Source: Streptomyces luomodiensis
GTDB lineage: Bacteria; Actinomycetota; Actinomycetes; Streptomycetales; Streptomycetaceae
DNA: 64,000 nucleotides
Direction: 5' to 3'
Assembly (NCBI RefSeq): GCF_031679605.1
Contig: NZ_CP117522.1
Location: 7,130,001 to 7,194,000 of the forward strand
Shown here: one piece after another, positions 7,539 to 59,404 of the stretch
Layout: the number at the start of each line of letters is the position of its first letter
Position numbering within the stretch: position 1 is the first letter of the stretch
Translations under genes and position numbers: made by a program
Notes under the pieces: model-generated
What the model was told of the DNA's origin: nothing
The model's database searches: none
The model's input: the letters and a program-made list of their open reading frames with translations, nothing else

Positions 7539-9539
7539 ATGACTGAATCGTCCTCGCCTCCACTCGCCGATCTGCTGCACGCCGCCGTCACCGCCGTCGG
7601 CGGCACCGAGCGCCCTGGCCAGGCCGCCATGGCCCAAGCCGTGGCGGAGGCGATCGACGACGGCTCCCATCTGCTGGTTCAGGCCGGCACCGGCACCGGG
7701 AAGTCCCTCGGCTATCTGGTCCCTGCCCTCGCCCACGGCGAGCGCGTCGTCGTCGCCACGGCGACCCTCGCCCTGCAGCGGCAGCTCGTCGAGCGCGACC
7801 TGCCCCGCACCGTGGAGGCACTGCATCCGCTGCTGCGCCGCCGCCCCGAGTTCGCGATGCTCAAGGGCCGCTCCAACTATCTGTGCCTGCACCGGCTCCA
7901 CGAGGGCGTCCCGCAGGAGGACGCCGAGGAGTCCGGCCTGTTCGATCCCTTCGAGGCCGCCGCGCCCACCAGCAGGCTCGGCAAGGACCTGCTGCGGCTG
8001 CGCGATTGGTCGGACGAGACCGAGACGGGTGACCGGGACGATCTGACCCCCGGAGTCTCGGACCGCGCCTGGTCCCAGGTGTCGGTCACCTCCCGGGAAT
8101 GCCTCGGTGCGTCCAAGTGCGCCTATGGCGCGGAGTGCTTCGCCGAGGCCGCCCGTGAGCGGGCCAAGCTCGCCGAGGTCGTCGTCACCAACCACGCGCT
8201 GCTCGCCATCGATGCCATCGAAGGCGCCCCCGTGCTGCCCAGCCATGAGGTGCTGATCGTCGACGAGGCCCATGAGCTGGTCTCCCGGGTCACCGGCGTC
8301 GCCAGCGGAGAGCTCACCCCCGGCCAGGTCAACCGCGCCGTGCGGCGTGCCGCGAAGCTGGTCAACGAACAGGCGGCGGACGCCCTCCAGACCGCCTCGG
8401 AGGGTTTCGAGCGGCTGATGGAGCTCGCCCTGCCCGGACGCCTGGAGAAGATCCCCGAGGAGCTCGGCCATGTGCTGATGGCGCTGCGCGACGCGGCCCG
8501 CACGGTGATCTCGGCGCTCGGCGCCACGCGGGACGCCTCGGTCAAGGACGAGGACGCGGTCCGCAAGCAGGCGCTGGGGGCCGTGGAGAACATCCACCAG
8601 GTGGCCGAGCGGATCGTCGAGGGGTCCGAGTACGACGTGGTCTGGTACGAGCGGCACGACCGCTTCGGTGCCTCGCTGCGTGTCGCCCCGCTCTCCGTGT
8701 CCGGGCTGCTGCGCGAGAAGCTGTTCGAGGACCGGTCCGTCGTCCTCACCTCCGCCACGCTCAAGCTCGGCGGGGACTTCAACGGAGTGGCCGCCTCCCT
8801 CGGTCTCGCCCCCGAGAGTCCGCAGGACCCGGAGGGCGGCGAGGACGCAGCGCCCCGCTGGCAGGGCCTCGACGTCGGCTCGCCCTTCGACTACTCCAAG
8901 CAGGGGATTCTCTACGTCGCCAAGCACCTCGCCCAGCCAGGCCGCGAGGGCAGCCGCGCCGATATGCTCGATGAGCTCGCCGAGCTGGTGGAGGCCGCGG
9001 GTGGCCGGACGCTCGGGCTGTTCTCCTCGATGCGCGCCGCCCAGACGGCCGCGGAGGAACTGCGCGGGCGCCTTGACATGCCCATCCTCCTCCAGGGCGA
9101 GGAGACGCTGGGCGAGCTGATCCGTGCCTTCGCCGCCGACGCCAGGACCTGTCTGTTCGGCACGCTGTCCCTCTGGCAGGGCGTCGATGTGCCGGGGCCC
9201 AGCTGTCAGTTGGTGGTCATGGACCGAGTGCCCTTCCCCCGCCCCGACGACCCTCTGATGAGCGCTCGCCAGAAGGCGGTGGAGGAGGCCGGGGGCAATG
9301 GCTTCATGGCCGTCGCCGCGACCCATGCCGCCCTGCTCATGGCCCAGGGTGCGGGACGGCTCGTGCGGGCTTCGGGCGACCGCGGCATCGTCGCCGTCCT
9401 GGATCCGCGTGTCGAGCGGGCTCGGTACGGGTCGTTCCTGCGCAAGTCCATGCCGGACTTCTGGTATACGACCGACCGCAACCAGGTGCGCCGCTCGCTG
9501 GCCGCCATTGACGCGGCGGCCAAGGCTCAGGGGGCCTAG
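7539..9539 (+). CDS. dinG: DinG-type ATP-dependent DNA helicase (XPD-like, iron-sulfur)
   Basis: 666-residue superfamily 2 helicase of the DinG/YoaA group, which unwinds forked or structured DNA 5' to 3' during repair. Walker A is GTGTGKS (near 7690), Walker B VDEAHEL (near 8258), with motif VI in QGAGRLVRASGDRG near the end. Four cysteines that could ligate a 4Fe-4S cluster lie in YLCLH, ECLG, SKCAY and AECF between motifs I and II. The ATG starts 9 bases after TAGGCT (7524-7529), a probable -10 element, so the message is probably leaderless. It converges with lexA, fitting a DNA-damage block, but no LexA box was seen at its own promoter. Confidence 0.9.
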   Translation: MTESSSPPLADLLHAAVTAVGGTERPGQAAMAQAVAEAIDDGSHLLVQAGTGTGKSLGYLVPALAHGERVVVATATLALQRQLVERDLPRTVEALHPLLRRRPEFAMLKGRSNYLCLHRLHEGVPQEDAEESGLFDPFEAAAPTSRLGKDLLRLRDWSDETETGDRDDLTPGVSDRAWSQVSVTSRECLGASKCAYGAECFAEAARERAKLAEVVVTNHALLAIDAIEGAPVLPSHEVLIVDEAHELVSRVTGVASGELTPGQVNRAVRRAAKLVNEQAADALQTASEGFERLMELALPGRLEKIPEELGHVLMALRDAARTVISALGATRDASVKDEDAVRKQALGAVENIHQVAERIVEGSEYDVVWYERHDRFGASLRVAPLSVSGLLREKLFEDRSVVLTSATLKLGGDFNGVAASLGLAPESPQDPEGGEDAAPRWQGLDVGSPFDYSKQGILYVAKHLAQPGREGSRADMLDELAELVEAAGGRTLGLFSSMRAAQTAAEELRGRLDMPILLQGEETLGELIRAFAADARTCLFGTLSLWQGVDVPGPSCQLVVMDRVPFPRPDDPLMSARQKAVEEAGGNGFMAVAATHAALLMAQGAGRLVRASGDRGIVAVLDPRVERARYGSFLRKSMPDFWYTTDRNQVRRSLAAIDAAAKAQGA

Positions 9540-9621
9540 GGTCTGCCGTCAAAGAAAGCAGGGCGCCCCGTTTGCCGACGGGACCTGGCGAGGGGTGTCC
9601 CGCGTCGGCCCGCATACAGCA

Positions 9622-55280: not shown

Positions 55281-56521
55281 TGTCCGGCTCCGCCACCGGC
55301 CCGCTGCCCTCCGCCGACTCCCTCTGGCCCGAGCCCACCCCGCTCGACCCCCGGTCCGCCCCGGTGCCGAAGTACGGCACCGGCTCGCTCGCCGATCTGC
55401 TGCCCGCCGTCGCCGCGGGTCAGGAGGTCCCCGGGCTCTCCTCCGGTCTGGCGCTCGCACCCGCCGACCGGGTCTGCGTCTTCCTGGTCGACGGCCTCGG
55501 CTGGGAGCTGCTGCGCGCCCACCCCGCCGAGGCGCCCTTCCTGACCTCGCTGCTGTCCGGCTCCAAGGGCGGCTCCGGGGAGCCGCTCACCGCGGGCTTC
55601 CCGTCCACCACCGCGACCTCGCTCGCCTCGGTGGGCACCGGACTGCCCCCCGGCGCCCACGGCCTGGCCGGCTACACGGTGCTGGACCCCGGCACCGGCC
55701 AGCTGATGAACCAGCTGCGCTGGCAGCCCTGGACGGATCCGTACGCCTGGCAGCCGTATCCCACCGTCTTCCAGCTCGCGGACGCCGCGGGCGTGCACAC
55801 CTGCCAGGTCTCCGCGCCGACCTTCGCCGAGACCCCGCTCACCAAGGTCGCGCTGAGCGGCGGCACCTTCCACGGGCGGCTCTCCGGCGAGGAGCGGATG
55901 GACCTCGCGGCCGAGCAGCTCGGCGCCGCGGGCCGCTCGCTGGTCTACACGTACTACAGCGAAGTGGACGGCAAGGGGCATCGCTTCGGTGTGGACTCGC
56001 CCGAGTGGCGTGAGCAGCTCCGCTATGTCGACGGGCTCGCCCAGCGGCTCGCCGAGCGCCTCCCGCCCCGCTCGGCGCTCTATGTCACCGCCGACCACGG
56101 CATGATCGACATCCCCTTCGACCCGGAGTCGCGCATCGACTTCGACGAGGACTGGGAGCTGCGCGCGGGCGTCTCGCTGCTGGGCGGCGAGGGCCGCGCC
56201 CGGCATGTGTACGCCGTTCCCGGCGCCGCCGGCGATGTGCTGGCCGTCTGGCGTGAGGTGCTGGGCGAGCGGATGTGGGTGGCCAGTCGCGACGAGGCCA
56301 TCGAGGCGGGCTGGTTCGGCGGGCCCGGCGGTGCCGACACCGGCGGCAGGGGTGTCGACCACCGGGTGTACCAGCGGATCGGCGATGTGGTGGCCGCCGC
56401 GCGCGAGGACGTCGCGATCGTCGCCTCGCACACCGAGCCGAAGGAGTCCGCCATGGTCGGGCTGCACGGTTCGATGACCCCCCTGGAGCAGCTGGTGCCG
56501 CTCCTCGAAGTACGCTCCTGA
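55280..56521 (+). CDS. Nucleotide pyrophosphatase/phosphodiesterase-like alkaline phosphatase superfamily protein
   Basis: 413 residues. Metal and nucleophile motifs of the type I phosphodiesterase family are present: CVFLVDGLGWELL (first metal Asp), FPSTTATSLASVGTG (nucleophile Thr/Ser), YYSEVDGKGHRFG and YVTADHGMIDIP. No clear signal peptide, so it is probably cytosolic or peripherally bound. The start ATG shares a base with the previous stop (TGATG), so it is coupled with DUF5998. Substrate is unknown; phosphodiesters or nucleotides are likely. Confidence 0.85.
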   Translation: MSGSATGPLPSADSLWPEPTPLDPRSAPVPKYGTGSLADLLPAVAAGQEVPGLSSGLALAPADRVCVFLVDGLGWELLRAHPAEAPFLTSLLSGSKGGSGEPLTAGFPSTTATSLASVGTGLPPGAHGLAGYTVLDPGTGQLMNQLRWQPWTDPYAWQPYPTVFQLADAAGVHTCQVSAPTFAETPLTKVALSGGTFHGRLSGEERMDLAAEQLGAAGRSLVYTYYSEVDGKGHRFGVDSPEWREQLRYVDGLAQRLAERLPPRSALYVTADHGMIDIPFDPESRIDFDEDWELRAGVSLLGGEGRARHVYAVPGAAGDVLAVWREVLGERMWVASRDEAIEAGWFGGPGGADTGGRGVDHRVYQRIGDVVAAAREDVAIVASHTEPKESAMVGLHGSMTPLEQLVPLLEVRS

Positions 56522-56567
56522 AGCCCTCACCCCCTCTCCCCGCCCGTACGAAAGGCCCTGCCTCCCC

Positions 56568-57236
56568 ATGCCCGAGCTGGTGTTCTTTTCCGGAACGATG
56601 GACTGCGGGAAGAGCACCCTCGCTCTGCAGATCCAGCACAACCGCTCGGCGCGGGGGCTCCAGGGGATGATCTACACCCGGGACGACCGGGCCGGCGAGG
56701 GCAAGCTCTCCTCGCGGCTCGGACTGGCCACCGAGGCGGTGGAGGTCGCCGACCACCTCGACTTCTACGCCCATGTGGTCCAGGCGATGACCGCCGGGGG
56801 CCGGGTCGACTACGTCATCGCGGACGAAGCCCAGTTCCTGACCCCGCCGCAGATAGACCAGCTCGCCCGGGTGGTCGACGACCTGGATGTGGACGTCTTC
56901 GCCTTCGGCATCACCACCGACTTCCGCAGCAAGCTCTTCCCCGGCTCCCAGCGCCTGGTGGAGCTCGCCGACCGGGTGGAGGTGCTTCAGGTCGAGGCGT
57001 TGTGCTGGTGCGGTGCCAGGGCGACGCACAACGCCCGTACCGTCGGCGGCCAGATGGTCGTGGAGGGCGCCCAGGTCGTCGTGGGTGACGTCAACCGGCC
57101 GGAGAGCGAGGTCGGTTACGAGGTGCTGTGCCGGCGTCACCACCGGCGCCGGATGACGGCCGCCGGAGCCCGCGCCGCCGCCCTGTCACCGGATGTGCTC
57201 CCGCTCGACCAGCCCTCCGGCCCGTCAGCGCGCTAG
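56568..57236 (+). CDS. tdk: Thymidine kinase
   Basis: 222-residue type II thymidine kinase for thymidine salvage. P-loop FFSGTMDCGKSTLAL, Walker B/lid VIADEAQFLTPPQ, the thymidine-binding lasso, and a zinc site in WCGARAT with CRRHH near the end. The ATG at 56568 follows CGAAAGG. The TAG stop (57234-57236) is built from a TA target and the first base of the IS5 element, so the insertion left the reading frame and length unchanged. Confidence 0.93.
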   Translation: MPELVFFSGTMDCGKSTLALQIQHNRSARGLQGMIYTRDDRAGEGKLSSRLGLATEAVEVADHLDFYAHVVQAMTAGGRVDYVIADEAQFLTPPQIDQLARVVDDLDVDVFAFGITTDFRSKLFPGSQRLVELADRVEVLQVEALCWCGARATHNARTVGGQMVVEGAQVVVGDVNRPESEVGYEVLCRRHHRRRMTAAGARAAALSPDVLPLDQPSGPSAR

Positions 57237-58151
57237 GGTCCGTCTTCAAACGGATCTTGCCCAGAGCAGGAACGATGCGAGGGTGACCGCCGCTTCGTAG
57301 GAAGTGGCGGTCTTCTCGTATCTGGTGGCGATCCCGCGGAAGCCCTTGAGCCGGTTGAAGCAGCGCTCGATCATGTTGCGCCGCCGGTAGGTCTCCCGGT
57401 CGAACCCTGGCGGTCGGCCGCCGTGGCCTCCGCGTCTCAGCCGGTGCCGTCGCTGGTCGGTCTTCTCGGGGATGGTGTGCGCGATGCCGCGTCTTCGCAG
57501 GTAGGCACGGAAGCCGCGGGAGCTGTAAGCCTTGTCTGCGATGACCTGGCCGGGCCTGCACCGAGGCCGGCCCAGGCCGGTGCGGGGAACACGGATCCGT
57601 TCCAGCAGAGGGCGTGCGCAGACACTGTCGTGGCGTTGGCCGGGCGTCACCAGGATCGCGAGCGGGCGGCCCTTGCCGTCACAGGCGAGGTGAATCTTGG
57701 TTGTCAGCCCGCCTCGGGATCGGCCGAGGGCGTGATCGTCCGGTTCGTCCTGCCGATGCCGCCCCCTTTTCGGCCGGTGGCGGCGGCGTGCTGGTGGGCG
57801 CGGACGATGGTGGAGTCGATCTGGACGAGCCAGTCGATGTCGCCGGCCGCGTCGGCGTGGGCTTGGATCTGCTGCAGGGCCCGTGTGAAGACTCCGTCGA
57901 GGGCGTAGCGGCGGAAGCGGGTGTACACGGTCTTCCACGGCCCGTAGCGTTCCGGCAAGTCACGCCAGGAGATCCCGGTGCGGATCTTGTAGACCATCCC
58001 GTTGACGACCTGCCGGTCCTCCACGCGAGGACGCCCCGTCGCAGCCCGGGGTATCAGCGGAGCGAGTAACTCCCACTCCTGATCAGTGAGTTCATGACGA
58101 CGTACCACGACACCATGATCTACTACCCGGATGATCTTTGAAGACGGACCC
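57236..58151 (-). mobile_element. IS5-family (IS427-like) insertion sequence, 916 bp
   Basis: Perfect 15-bp terminal inverted repeats GGGTCCGTCTTCAAA (57236-57250) and its complement (58137-58151) enclose a two-frame DDE transposase. A 2-bp TA duplication flanks the element (57234-57235 and 58152-58153). The size, TA target, frameshifted transposase and GGG/CCC ends fit the IS427 group of IS5. It inserted exactly in the tdk stop codon region. Confidence 0.93.
57246..58108 (-). CDS. IS5-family transposase made by -1 frameshift (orfA/orfB)
   Basis: orfA runs from GTG 58108 to 57704 (MVRRHELTDQEWELLAPLIPR, HTH-like) and carries the first catalytic Asp (WLVQIDSTIVRAHQH). orfB covers the rest to 57246, with the second Asp in VIADKAYSSRGF and the Glu in RNMIERCFNRLKGFRGIATRYEK. 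Both frames overlap between 57704 and 57938. An A4G5 run (57762-57770, minus strand) where orfB is in -1 is a likely slip site; the full DDE set forms only in the fusion. No inactivating stop was seen, so the element may still be active. Confidence 0.85.
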
Positions 58152-58153
58152 TA

Positions 58154-58338
58154 GGTCCGTCGTCCATGGGGGCGCCCTGCTCCCGACGGCTGGCACGGCC
58201 GCTCACCGCGTTGTCGCATCACCCGGGTACGTCCCGTGCGAGGGCGACGCTCGCATCGCGGTCGACCGCACCGGCCTCCCCGGCTACCGCTGGGAGGCGC
58301 CCCCGCTCGCGGCCGGGCGCCCCCTGTGACGACGGACC
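58154..58338. mobile_element. MITE-like element of about 185 bp next to the IS
   Basis: Terminal inverted repeats: left GGTCCGTCGTC (58154-58164) with GGGGGCGCCC (58168-58177), right GGGCGCCCCC (58315-58324) with GACGACGGACC (58328-58338). Arms total about 24 bp with a few mismatches, and the left end has one G fewer than the right. The outer GG(G)TCCGTC is the same as the IS5 end, and TA lies on both sides. No transposase, so it is probably a non-autonomous relative mobilised by an IS5-like enzyme. Confidence 0.65.
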
Positions 58339-59115
58339 CTAGCCCCGGTCTGCCGATACGACGGTGAAGGCGGCCCCTTCCGGGTCCCGCACCGTGGCCC
58401 GGTGTCCGGTCGCTCCCCGCGACGGCGGCCGGACCACCTGACCGCCCAACGCGGTGACCCGGCGCACCGTCTCCGCCACGTCGGCCACCGCGAAGTGCGT
58501 CATCCAGTACGGGCCCCGGCCGCGCGGCAGGGCGTCGCCGACGCTCTGGATCGCGCAGACCGGCCGGTCGCCCAGGCGCAGGGTGCGGCAGCCCGGCTCC
58601 TCGGAGGCCGCCGGTTCCGCCCGGTAGCCGAAGACCATCTGGTAGAACTTCAGAACCCCGGTGCCCTCGCGGGTCAGCAGCTCGTGCCAGACCGGCGTCC
58701 CCGGCGCCCCGGGCTCCGCCGCCGCCGTGTACGTGCCCTCCTGCCATACGCCGAACACCGCGCCCTCGGGGTCGGCGGCGATCAGCATCCGGCCGGCCTC
58801 GTCGGCGTCCAGCGGGCCCACCGCCACGGTGCCGCCGCAGGCGCGGATCATCTCGGCGGTCTCATCGGCGTCGTCGGACGCCAGATAGGTCGACCAGGCC
58901 ACCGGCAAGTGGCGTTCCGGAGGCAGCTCGCTCAACCCGGCGACCGGCCGGCCGCCCTGGACCGCGCGGACATACGCGCCGAGTTGCTGTGGGCCCGGTG
59001 TGAACTCCCAGCCGAACAAGGCGTGGTAGAAGTCCTGTGTCGCGGCAAGGCTGTGCACCATCAGACTCGTCCAGCAGGGCGTGCCCGGTGTGCGCCGAGT
59101 CGCTGCCTCGGTCAT
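58339..59115 (-). CDS. VOC (glyoxalase/bleomycin-resistance) family protein with two domains
   Basis: 258 residues, two tandem vicinal-oxygen-chelate modules: PCWTSLMVHSLAATQDFYHALFGWEFT ... MLIAADPEGAVFGVWQ (1-125) and PVWHELLTREGTGVLKFYQMVFGYRAE ... TVRDPEGAAFTVV (135-255). This is the YdeD/SnoaL-independent two-domain type common in Streptomyces; metal and substrate are unknown. ATG at 59115 follows GAGGAGAG. Its TAG stop lies on the right-hand CTAG of the MITE-like element and was probably shared, as CTAG, with the tdk stop before the insertions. Confidence 0.85.
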   Translation of the reverse strand: MTEAATRRTPGTPCWTSLMVHSLAATQDFYHALFGWEFTPGPQQLGAYVRAVQGGRPVAGLSELPPERHLPVAWSTYLASDDADETAEMIRACGGTVAVGPLDADEAGRMLIAADPEGAVFGVWQEGTYTAAAEPGAPGTPVWHELLTREGTGVLKFYQMVFGYRAEPAASEEPGCRTLRLGDRPVCAIQSVGDALPRGRGPYWMTHFAVADVAETVRRVTALGGQVVRPPSRGATGHRATVRDPEGAAFTVVSADRG

Positions 59116-59404
59116 ACGTCATTCTCTCCTCGGACCATCGAGTGGTGGCCGTGCGGCCCCGCGCCGGTCGGCGACACGGGGCGGTTGTGCGGAGGTGCTG
59201 ATGCGGGGGGTCCGACAGATATTTGCACCACCTGTCGCCGATGGCGCCCTGGCGGAGCCGCAATTCATCGCGCCCCGCAACAGAATGCCCGACTTACTGC
59301 CGCATGTCCGTTTCGGCTTCATTGCGCTCTGGTGGCGCCCAGCTGTCCGCAGGGTGACCAGGTGGTCCAATCGACGCAGAGATATCTACGCAAGGGTGGT
59401 TCCT

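Follow-up and report, generated by a model that had tools for sequence, protein, structure and literature searches.

The insertion sequence IS5 of Escherichia coli is described as having the target consensus YTAR, which mostly takes the form CTAG, a tetranucleotide that is under-represented in bacterial genomes (PMC5493358). Avoidance of CTAG has also been described for a haloarchaeon (PMC3119063), CTAG direct repeats are given for a mycobacterial IS5 element (PMC9241763), and IS5 copies flanked by CTAA or CTAG are named in PMC11677980. One IS427-group element, ISPha1, is listed with a 4-bp duplication and one ORF (PMC3281130).

In the Streptomyces luomodiensis genome under study (G000; a single contig of 10.04 Mb), two elements with CTAG at their junctions stand side by side between the convergent genes tdk and VOC. 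They lie in the window, by which we mean the whole stretch of 64,000 nucleotides that was analysed (7,130,001-7,194,000). The tdk-VOC locus is, in itself, an ordinary and well-resolved pair of insertions. A search with the MITE-like element of the window (MITE-A) led to a second, related family (MITE-B), and for this one MITE family an enrichment at the stop codons of genes is strongly supported.

Results

Layout of the tdk-VOC junction

The gene for thymidine kinase, tdk, and a gene for a glyoxalase-like VOC protein run toward each other, with an IS5-family insertion sequence and MITE-A between them (Table 1). The closest named matches of tdk are those of S. violaceusniger and S. endocoffeicus (95%), and nearly all of its best matches are from Streptomyces. 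The initial annotation had placed a CTAG at each of the three element junctions, had read the left one as the stop of tdk and the right one as the stop of VOC, and had proposed that removal of both elements would leave a single CTAG with overlapping stops. All of this is borne out: the three CTAGs are present, both genes still end in TAG, and the empty site reconstructed in silico reads GCG-CTAG-CCCC. A gene-truncation artefact was considered as the source of these stops and rejected, since an in-frame stop at the target is possible only from a pre-existing TAG.

Table 1. Features of the tdk-VOC junction (coordinates in the window)
Feature	Coordinates	Strand	Supporting evidence
tdk, thymidine kinase, 222 aa	56568..57236	+	PF00265; NF003297 above cut-off; TAG stop inside left CTAG
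TA duplication, left copy, within CTAG 57233-57236	57234..57235	.	IS-less allele in G384
IS5-family (IS427-like) insertion sequence, 916 bp including outer G and C	57236..58151	-	Inverted repeats; further genomic copies; NF033580
Transposase ORF 2, 230 aa, DDE domain, overlaps ORF 1	57246..57938	-	PF01609; NF033580; three-frame translation
Transposase ORF 1, 134 aa, DUF4096	57704..58108	-	PF13340; NF033580
TA duplication between IS and MITE, within CTAG 58151-58154	58152..58153	.	
MITE-like element (MITE-A), 186 bp, long foldback	58154..58339	+	27-nt inverted repeats; second full copy; alone at junction in G384
TA duplication, right copy, within CTAG 58339-58342	58340..58341	.	
VOC (glyoxalase-like) gene, 258 aa	58339..59115	-	PF18029; PF00903; TAG stop inside right CTAG

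The terminal inverted repeats of the IS are identical at 18/18 positions, the CTAG included; with the TA duplication counted, its ends read GGG...CCC. Both of its ORFs exceed the cut-off of 110 bits for the IS5 family transposase model NF033580 (127 and 171.8 bits), and their overlap contains a AAAAGGGGG run, a possible frameshift site of the transposase. G000 carries four full-length copies, the one in the window and three others at 99%, together with two long partial copies (97-98%) and more distant ones. The three other full-length copies are flanked by CTA...TAG (twice) and CTA...TAA (once), which shows the duplication to be TA only and assigns the outer G and C to the IS itself. Duplication of the entire 4-bp CTAG was rejected on the evidence of L024, L268, L269 and L286, where a left-hand CTAG is paired with a right-hand CTAA.

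Among 392 Streptomyces genomes, G000 included, 33 have matches to the IS (E <= 1e-220); in the genus searches with the IS and with MITE-B, scoring covered the two best copies of each genome, part of which were fetched. GG/CC ends with TA on both sides were found in 25/32 IS loci, and most of the remaining seven are truncated. When the flanks of the IS copies were compared with one another for recurrent stacks, no common flanks were found at the threshold used.

MITE-A is too short to encode a transposase. The arms of its terminal inverted repeats agree at 85%, and its predicted fold has a z-score of -5.0. A second full copy in G000 (L002, 8947573-8947759, 87%) is flanked by CA on the left and TA on the right, and partial copies are present at three further loci (L003-L005). 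Eight other genomes contain matches, two of which (L188, L189) carry other ends. At gathering score, no Rfam match was found in the interval 56400-59400 of the window, and a search of five loci at relaxed score returned no more than two weak hits, neither of which lay in the element. Two frames overlap MITE-A, one of 63 aa at 58138-58329 (+) and one of 198 aa at 58151-58747 (-), the latter entering VOC.

Order of the two insertions

G384 is the sole genome of the same species among the matches listed from the search of 392 genus genomes. Its junction has the order tdk-CTAG-MITE-CTAG-VOC and is free of the IS. The IS is therefore the younger insertion and sits in the left CTAG of MITE-A. In one respect the sequence departs from a perfectly clean insertion event: the left end of MITE-A reads CTA-GG in the window and CTA-GGG in G384, so that one G is missing beside the IS, and the ends of the element are GG...CCC in the window versus GGG...CCC in G384.

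The two strains are close at this locus, with 6/669 differing bases in tdk and 12/1,500 on the VOC side, but MITE-A itself differs at 12/184 aligned bases and in 5 gap columns. A divergence of 6.5% between the MITE copies, set against only about 0.8-0.9% in the flanks, is what two separate insertions at one CTAG, one in each strain, might leave behind. We nevertheless think such a coincidence very improbable: the window and G384 copies have common variants that are absent from seven other aligned MITE-A copies, they lie in the same orientation, and in a one-way search the G384 copy is the best non-self match of the window copy. Both full MITE-A copies of G000 are also present in G384, and no empty allele was found for them; likewise, no MITE-less allele of the junction was found in the same species among the matches listed from the 392 genus genomes.

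The junction in other species

The initial annotation had expected uninserted relatives to show overlapping stops. This expectation failed in the nearest ones. We parsed 117 tdk-VOC junctions (some genomes twice, window and G384 included; another 23 loci lacked a VOC match). By tdk, the ten nearest records from other species are G055, G096, G408, G150, G396, G165, G381, L042, L044 and L045, among which the last three are named and may duplicate the species of an unnamed one. In 10/10 of them, tdk ends in TGA, followed by 48-109 bp before the VOC stop. The latter is CTA in four records (L195, L197, L198, L200), where it aligns to the CTA of the window with one gap column, and TGA in the other six. 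The junction alignment further places a spacer block, GCCCTCCGGCC, to the left of MITE-A in the window and shows eight additional residues (QPSGPSAR) at the C-terminus of the window tdk past the end point of the ten records. Measured from the last common tdk codon to the VOC stop, the joined spacer of the window has 23 bases versus at least 51 in the ten records; at least 28 bases, including the TGA of tdk, are thus missing in this lineage.

Since the relatives have TGA-ended tdk genes and spacers, and since VOC ends in CTA in four of them, the CTAG was probably the stop of VOC originally, and its use by tdk is derived in this species. MITE-A, in turn, most likely entered at the stop of VOC. 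The description of the locus as a clear case of insertion at a convergent-stop palindrome is too strongly worded as regards MITE-A; for the IS, G384 provides the empty site.

The loss of at least 28 bp, including the TGA of tdk, could have come first, so that the CTAG already served both genes when the MITE hit the shared stop. We lean slightly toward this order. In both strains the two stops overlap exactly once the site is joined, and shared CTAG stops do exist: they account for two of the 142 baseline CTAGs described below, and at this same junction one CTAG serves both stops in the distant S. lasiicapitis (L049), the sole such case elsewhere among the 117 junctions. MITE-B copies, moreover, are found on called shared stops (L351, L355, L368 and the linked sites L317/L326). 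No uninserted allele has been seen, however, and the ten nearest other-species records are without such an arrangement. In S. himastatinicus (L043) and G180 (L202), the tdk and VOC stops overlap in CTAA.

Alternatively, the MITE entered the CTAG of VOC while tdk still ended at its own upstream TGA, and a later deletion brought tdk to its present end, in which case the CTAG was never shared. The VOC stop CTA near the aligned position in 4/10 of the nearest records and the tdk TGA in 10/10 speak for this course of events, as does the position of GCCCTCCGGCC on the left side of the MITE, which is expected if entry took place at the stop of VOC. Nothing seen supports this order as such, and it needs the same deletion as a CTAG shared from the outset; we judge it credible but somewhat doubtful. 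Under the slightly favored order, with the deletion first, MITE-A would have landed on a stop already common to tdk and VOC.

CTAG baseline and regeneration of stop codons

The baseline was drawn from 784 kb of G000, made up of the window, whose three CTAGs are counted, and 36 further 20-kb stretches; genes were called by a simple codon-usage caller instead of being taken from the annotation. CTAG occurs 142 times versus 2,044 times expected from base composition, an approximately 14-fold depletion. By class, 83 CTAGs are intergenic, 36 lie on one stop, 21 within coding sequences and two on a shared convergent stop. From these counts, the chance that a CTAG-targeting element meets a stop is about 27%, and that it meets a shared convergent one about 1.4%. 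The position of the insertions at CTAG is not itself due to chance, given that CTAG is found only about once per 5.5 kb in G000, that the three other full-length IS copies all have TA on both sides, and that the IS is absent from the tdk-VOC site of the same-species strain G384.

The proposal that elements with GG/CC ends and a TA duplication rebuild the CTAG stops describes the mechanism correctly, and for the IS the empty site exists in G384. We compared 18 occupied sites of G000 (15 MITE-B, 3 IS) with that strain. Ten of them have an empty allele with just one TA in G384 (9 CTAG, 1 CTAC), among them 8/15 MITE-B copies and the IS sites L022 and L023. As to the remaining 8/18 sites, L226 and L224 have diverged, L010 and L016 are occupied in both strains, L012 holds another related element, L013 differs, and L006 and L024 are without a partner. 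Eight empty sites are at stops (7 MITE-B, 1 IS): the same stop is present in G384 in 8/8 cases and was retained by the occupied allele in 7/8. The exception is L008, in which the right TA reads TG, the stop is lost and the gene is extended by six residues. Across the 52 MITE-B stop sites introduced below, genes that read the right junction kept their stop in 22/23 cases; for the left junction, retention follows by construction.

MITE-B lies preferentially at stop codons

MITE-B is 175 bp long, has the ends GGGCGTGTTTCGAAAG...CTTTCGAAACACGCCC, is present in 105/392 genus genomes (E <= 1e-30) and reaches 15 full copies in G000. Among 103 loci examined, eight had no recognisable ends, which left 95 copies; five repeat sites were removed, and L292 and L293 were left out as repeats of copies already included. 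TA stands on both sides in 73/95 copies and the target is CTAG in 72/95. Grouping of the 95 copies, with the first of each cluster kept, gave 80 unique sites, of which 49 are at one stop and 3 at a shared convergent stop; another 22 are intergenic, and 6 lie within coding sequences.

MITE-B is thus at a stop in 52/80 unique sites versus 38/142 baseline CTAGs (p 4e-8), a comparison that sets copies from other genomes against the G000 baseline; against the 42 other CTAGs of the same loci, 9 of which are at stops, p is 8e-6, and for the G000 copies alone the count is 10/15 (p 0.003). The bias persists under two stricter gene-calling settings (52/80 versus 35/142; 49/80 versus 33/142). It is a bias toward stops as such. 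An excess at CTAG convergent-stop junctions, which the initial annotation had proposed to look for, did not reach significance when all 112 element sites (80 MITE-B, 25 IS, 7 MITE-A) were compared with the baseline (4/112 versus 2/142, p 0.41). At the three shared-stop MITE-B sites, a radical SAM molybdenum cofactor gene faces an 84-aa frame without Pfam match (L351), a cobalamin adenosyltransferase gene faces a 206-aa frame without Pfam match (L355), and FBP_C faces a WYL regulator (L368), the only one of the three with known families on both sides. With the strictest gene calling, one of these three sites remains, versus two in the baseline.

The IS behaves differently: 7/25 of its sites, the IS of the window not being among them, are at stops versus 38/142 CTAGs (p 1.0), and MITE-B and the IS differ from each other in this respect (p 0.002). 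Since the IS shows no such enrichment, the difference between the two elements cannot be put down to harmlessness alone. The behavior of the IS is one point in favor of the idea that the stop bias of MITE-B reflects a function, for instance that of hairpins at 3' ends that terminate transcription between convergent genes, and not only the harmlessness of the position. The location of 11/15 G000 copies between convergent genes, compared with 20/142 CTAGs (p 3e-6), would suit such a role, as would the end-to-end fold with covarying pairs described below. We still consider a function of this kind unlikely: 37/80 unique sites lie between co-directional genes, MITE-B shows no orientation bias relative to the gene (25 same, 17 opposite, p 0.28), and the Rfam searches mentioned above gave neither a match at gathering score nor, at relaxed score, a hit inside the element.

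Fold and common core of the MITEs

In an alignment of 28 diverse copies out of the 95, MITE-B folds end to end with 96.9% of the pair cells standard, and 24/52 pairs are changed on both sides, in 109 cells. Shuffled controls gave a mean of 29.5 and reached 109 in 0/500 cases, and slid controls gave 9-21; the alignment under test also served to predict the structure, which these controls favor for that reason. The compensating changes may reflect selection for keeping the fold, or else mutation templated by the hairpin. MITE-A and MITE-B have a core of about 100 bp in common with a third type (L188, L189), whose ends are again different, so that at least three sets of ends are associated with this core.

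Discussion

The data lend themselves to an overall model, in our judgement very likely correct, in which the CTAG stop of VOC was hit by MITE-A and then by the IS, the stops were rebuilt, and selection accounts for the placement bias. At the outset, the 3' end of VOC would have carried a TAG stop inside a CTAG. As the present sequence suggests, the non-autonomous, CTAG/TA-targeting MITE-A would have inserted there, TA would have been duplicated, and the terminal G and C would have rebuilt CTAG on both sides. The IS427-like element later entered the left CTAG of the MITE and CTAG was rebuilt again, a step that the G384 allele shows, bar the one missing G. Owing to the initial G, the final C and the duplicated TA of such elements, a target stop of the form TAG or TAA is re-created as TAG on each outer side and neither protein changes, as the IS step at this locus shows. 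The loss by tdk of its own TGA may have preceded the MITE, with a truly shared CTAG as the result, or may have followed it; that tdk ends in the left CTAG copy is due to the shorter spacer of this lineage, which is without tdk's own TGA. As CTAG is rare in genes and often part of a TAG stop, a CTAG-targeting element should land mostly on noncoding DNA or on stops, and selection against other sites probably enriches the copies at stop codons, an enrichment that pertains to MITE-B and for which selection is the presumed cause.

A broader proposal, for and against which we see equal grounds, is that of a genus-wide guild of CTAG elements. TAG stops would be its safe harbour, given G...C ends and a TA duplication that rebuild the stop and the near-absence of CTAG from coding sequences; refilled sites would stack, the MITE core would have moved among at least three sets of ends, and the fold of MITE-B would be kept by compensation.

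The locus offers a concrete and countable route by which the target sequence and the end letters of a transposon make an insertion harmless to the flanking genes. In this Streptomyces genome, the rare CTAG marks gene ends as landing sites, and stacks of CTAG elements can accumulate at 3' ends, with a possible effect on transcriptional read-through between neighboring genes. Their position on stops, strongly supported for MITE-B, is a general pattern worth following, and any annotated Streptomyces genome would serve to test the prediction. In the literature searched, which took in few subscription journals, no report was found that describes placement at stop codons or these Streptomyces MITEs.

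Palindromic repeats outside genes are well represented by REP and other palindromic repeats at 3' ends. Unlike REP, the Streptomyces elements are flanked by TA duplications, have empty alleles (MITE-B) and are about 175-190 bp in length. They resemble the bacterial MITEs of IS5-like origin, which are likewise short, with inverted repeats similar to those of a co-resident IS and, as in MITE-B, a duplicated target and many copies; they differ from these in the position of MITE-B on stops at 52/80 sites and in the combination of one core with at least three sets of ends. Among insertion sequences, E. coli IS5 shares with the window elements CTAG as its commonest target (PMC5493358) but duplicates 4 bp, whereas elements of the window type duplicate TA alone. 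A further likeness is with the IS427 group: PMC3281130 gives most of its members a 2-bp duplication and two ORFs that overlap, and the IS of the window has both features. At 916 bp, this IS exceeds the IS427-group elements tabulated there, which measure 832-865 bp, and its placement in the group is putative.

Shared core, foldback and possible traces of the MITE-like elements

A core of about 100 bp is common to MITEs that carry at least three distinct sets of terminal inverted repeats, among them MITE-A, the MITE-like element between the convergent tdk and VOC genes, and, judged by sequence comparison, it looks as though it had been transferred among different transposon ends. Nested inside MITE-A copies, at a position that varies from copy to copy, lies a palindrome of about 30 bp of the CCCCCAGCTACCGCTGGGAGGTGCCCCC type, which is also present at other places in the genome.

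In the related MITE-B family, the foldback spans the whole length of the element, and alignment A2 revealed strong compensating changes between species, whereby G-U intermediates are scarce in its outer helices; either selection or hairpin-templated mutation could have produced these changes.

Where the two TA copies flanking MITE-B were unequal, the altered copy was mostly a right TG (7 of 95 copies) or a left CA (5 of 95), a strand-symmetric change. At the tdk-VOC junctions of S. alboflavus (L048) and S. justiciae (L056), the paired TAG stops are 4-5 bp apart, and the stop regions read CTAGGGACCTAG and CTAGGGAGCCTAG; by their sequence, these might be footprints left by a departed element.

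A different stop codon in the window probably carries a shrunken remnant of the same kind of element as MITE-A. Besides the stack at tdk-VOC, the S. luomodiensis genome holds a second one, in which the IS427-like IS is followed by another IS5-like element (66% identity) and then by a MITE-B copy, the inner junctions reading CTAG.

Positions of the elements and their parts
Feature	Position	Loci	Details
Candidate remnant	window 9536-9588		CTAG at TAG stop, then ~47 bp whose ends, GGGTCTGCCGTCAAAG...CCGACGGGACC, resemble those of MITE-A in decayed form
Second stack	genome ~9,179,781-9,181,738	L022, L028, L013	IS, IS5-like element and MITE-B copy, mutually adjoining
MITEs sharing the core	window 58154-58339 (MITE-A)	L007, L188, L189	
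Nested palindrome	window ~58270-58305	L017, L019, L020, L186, L192
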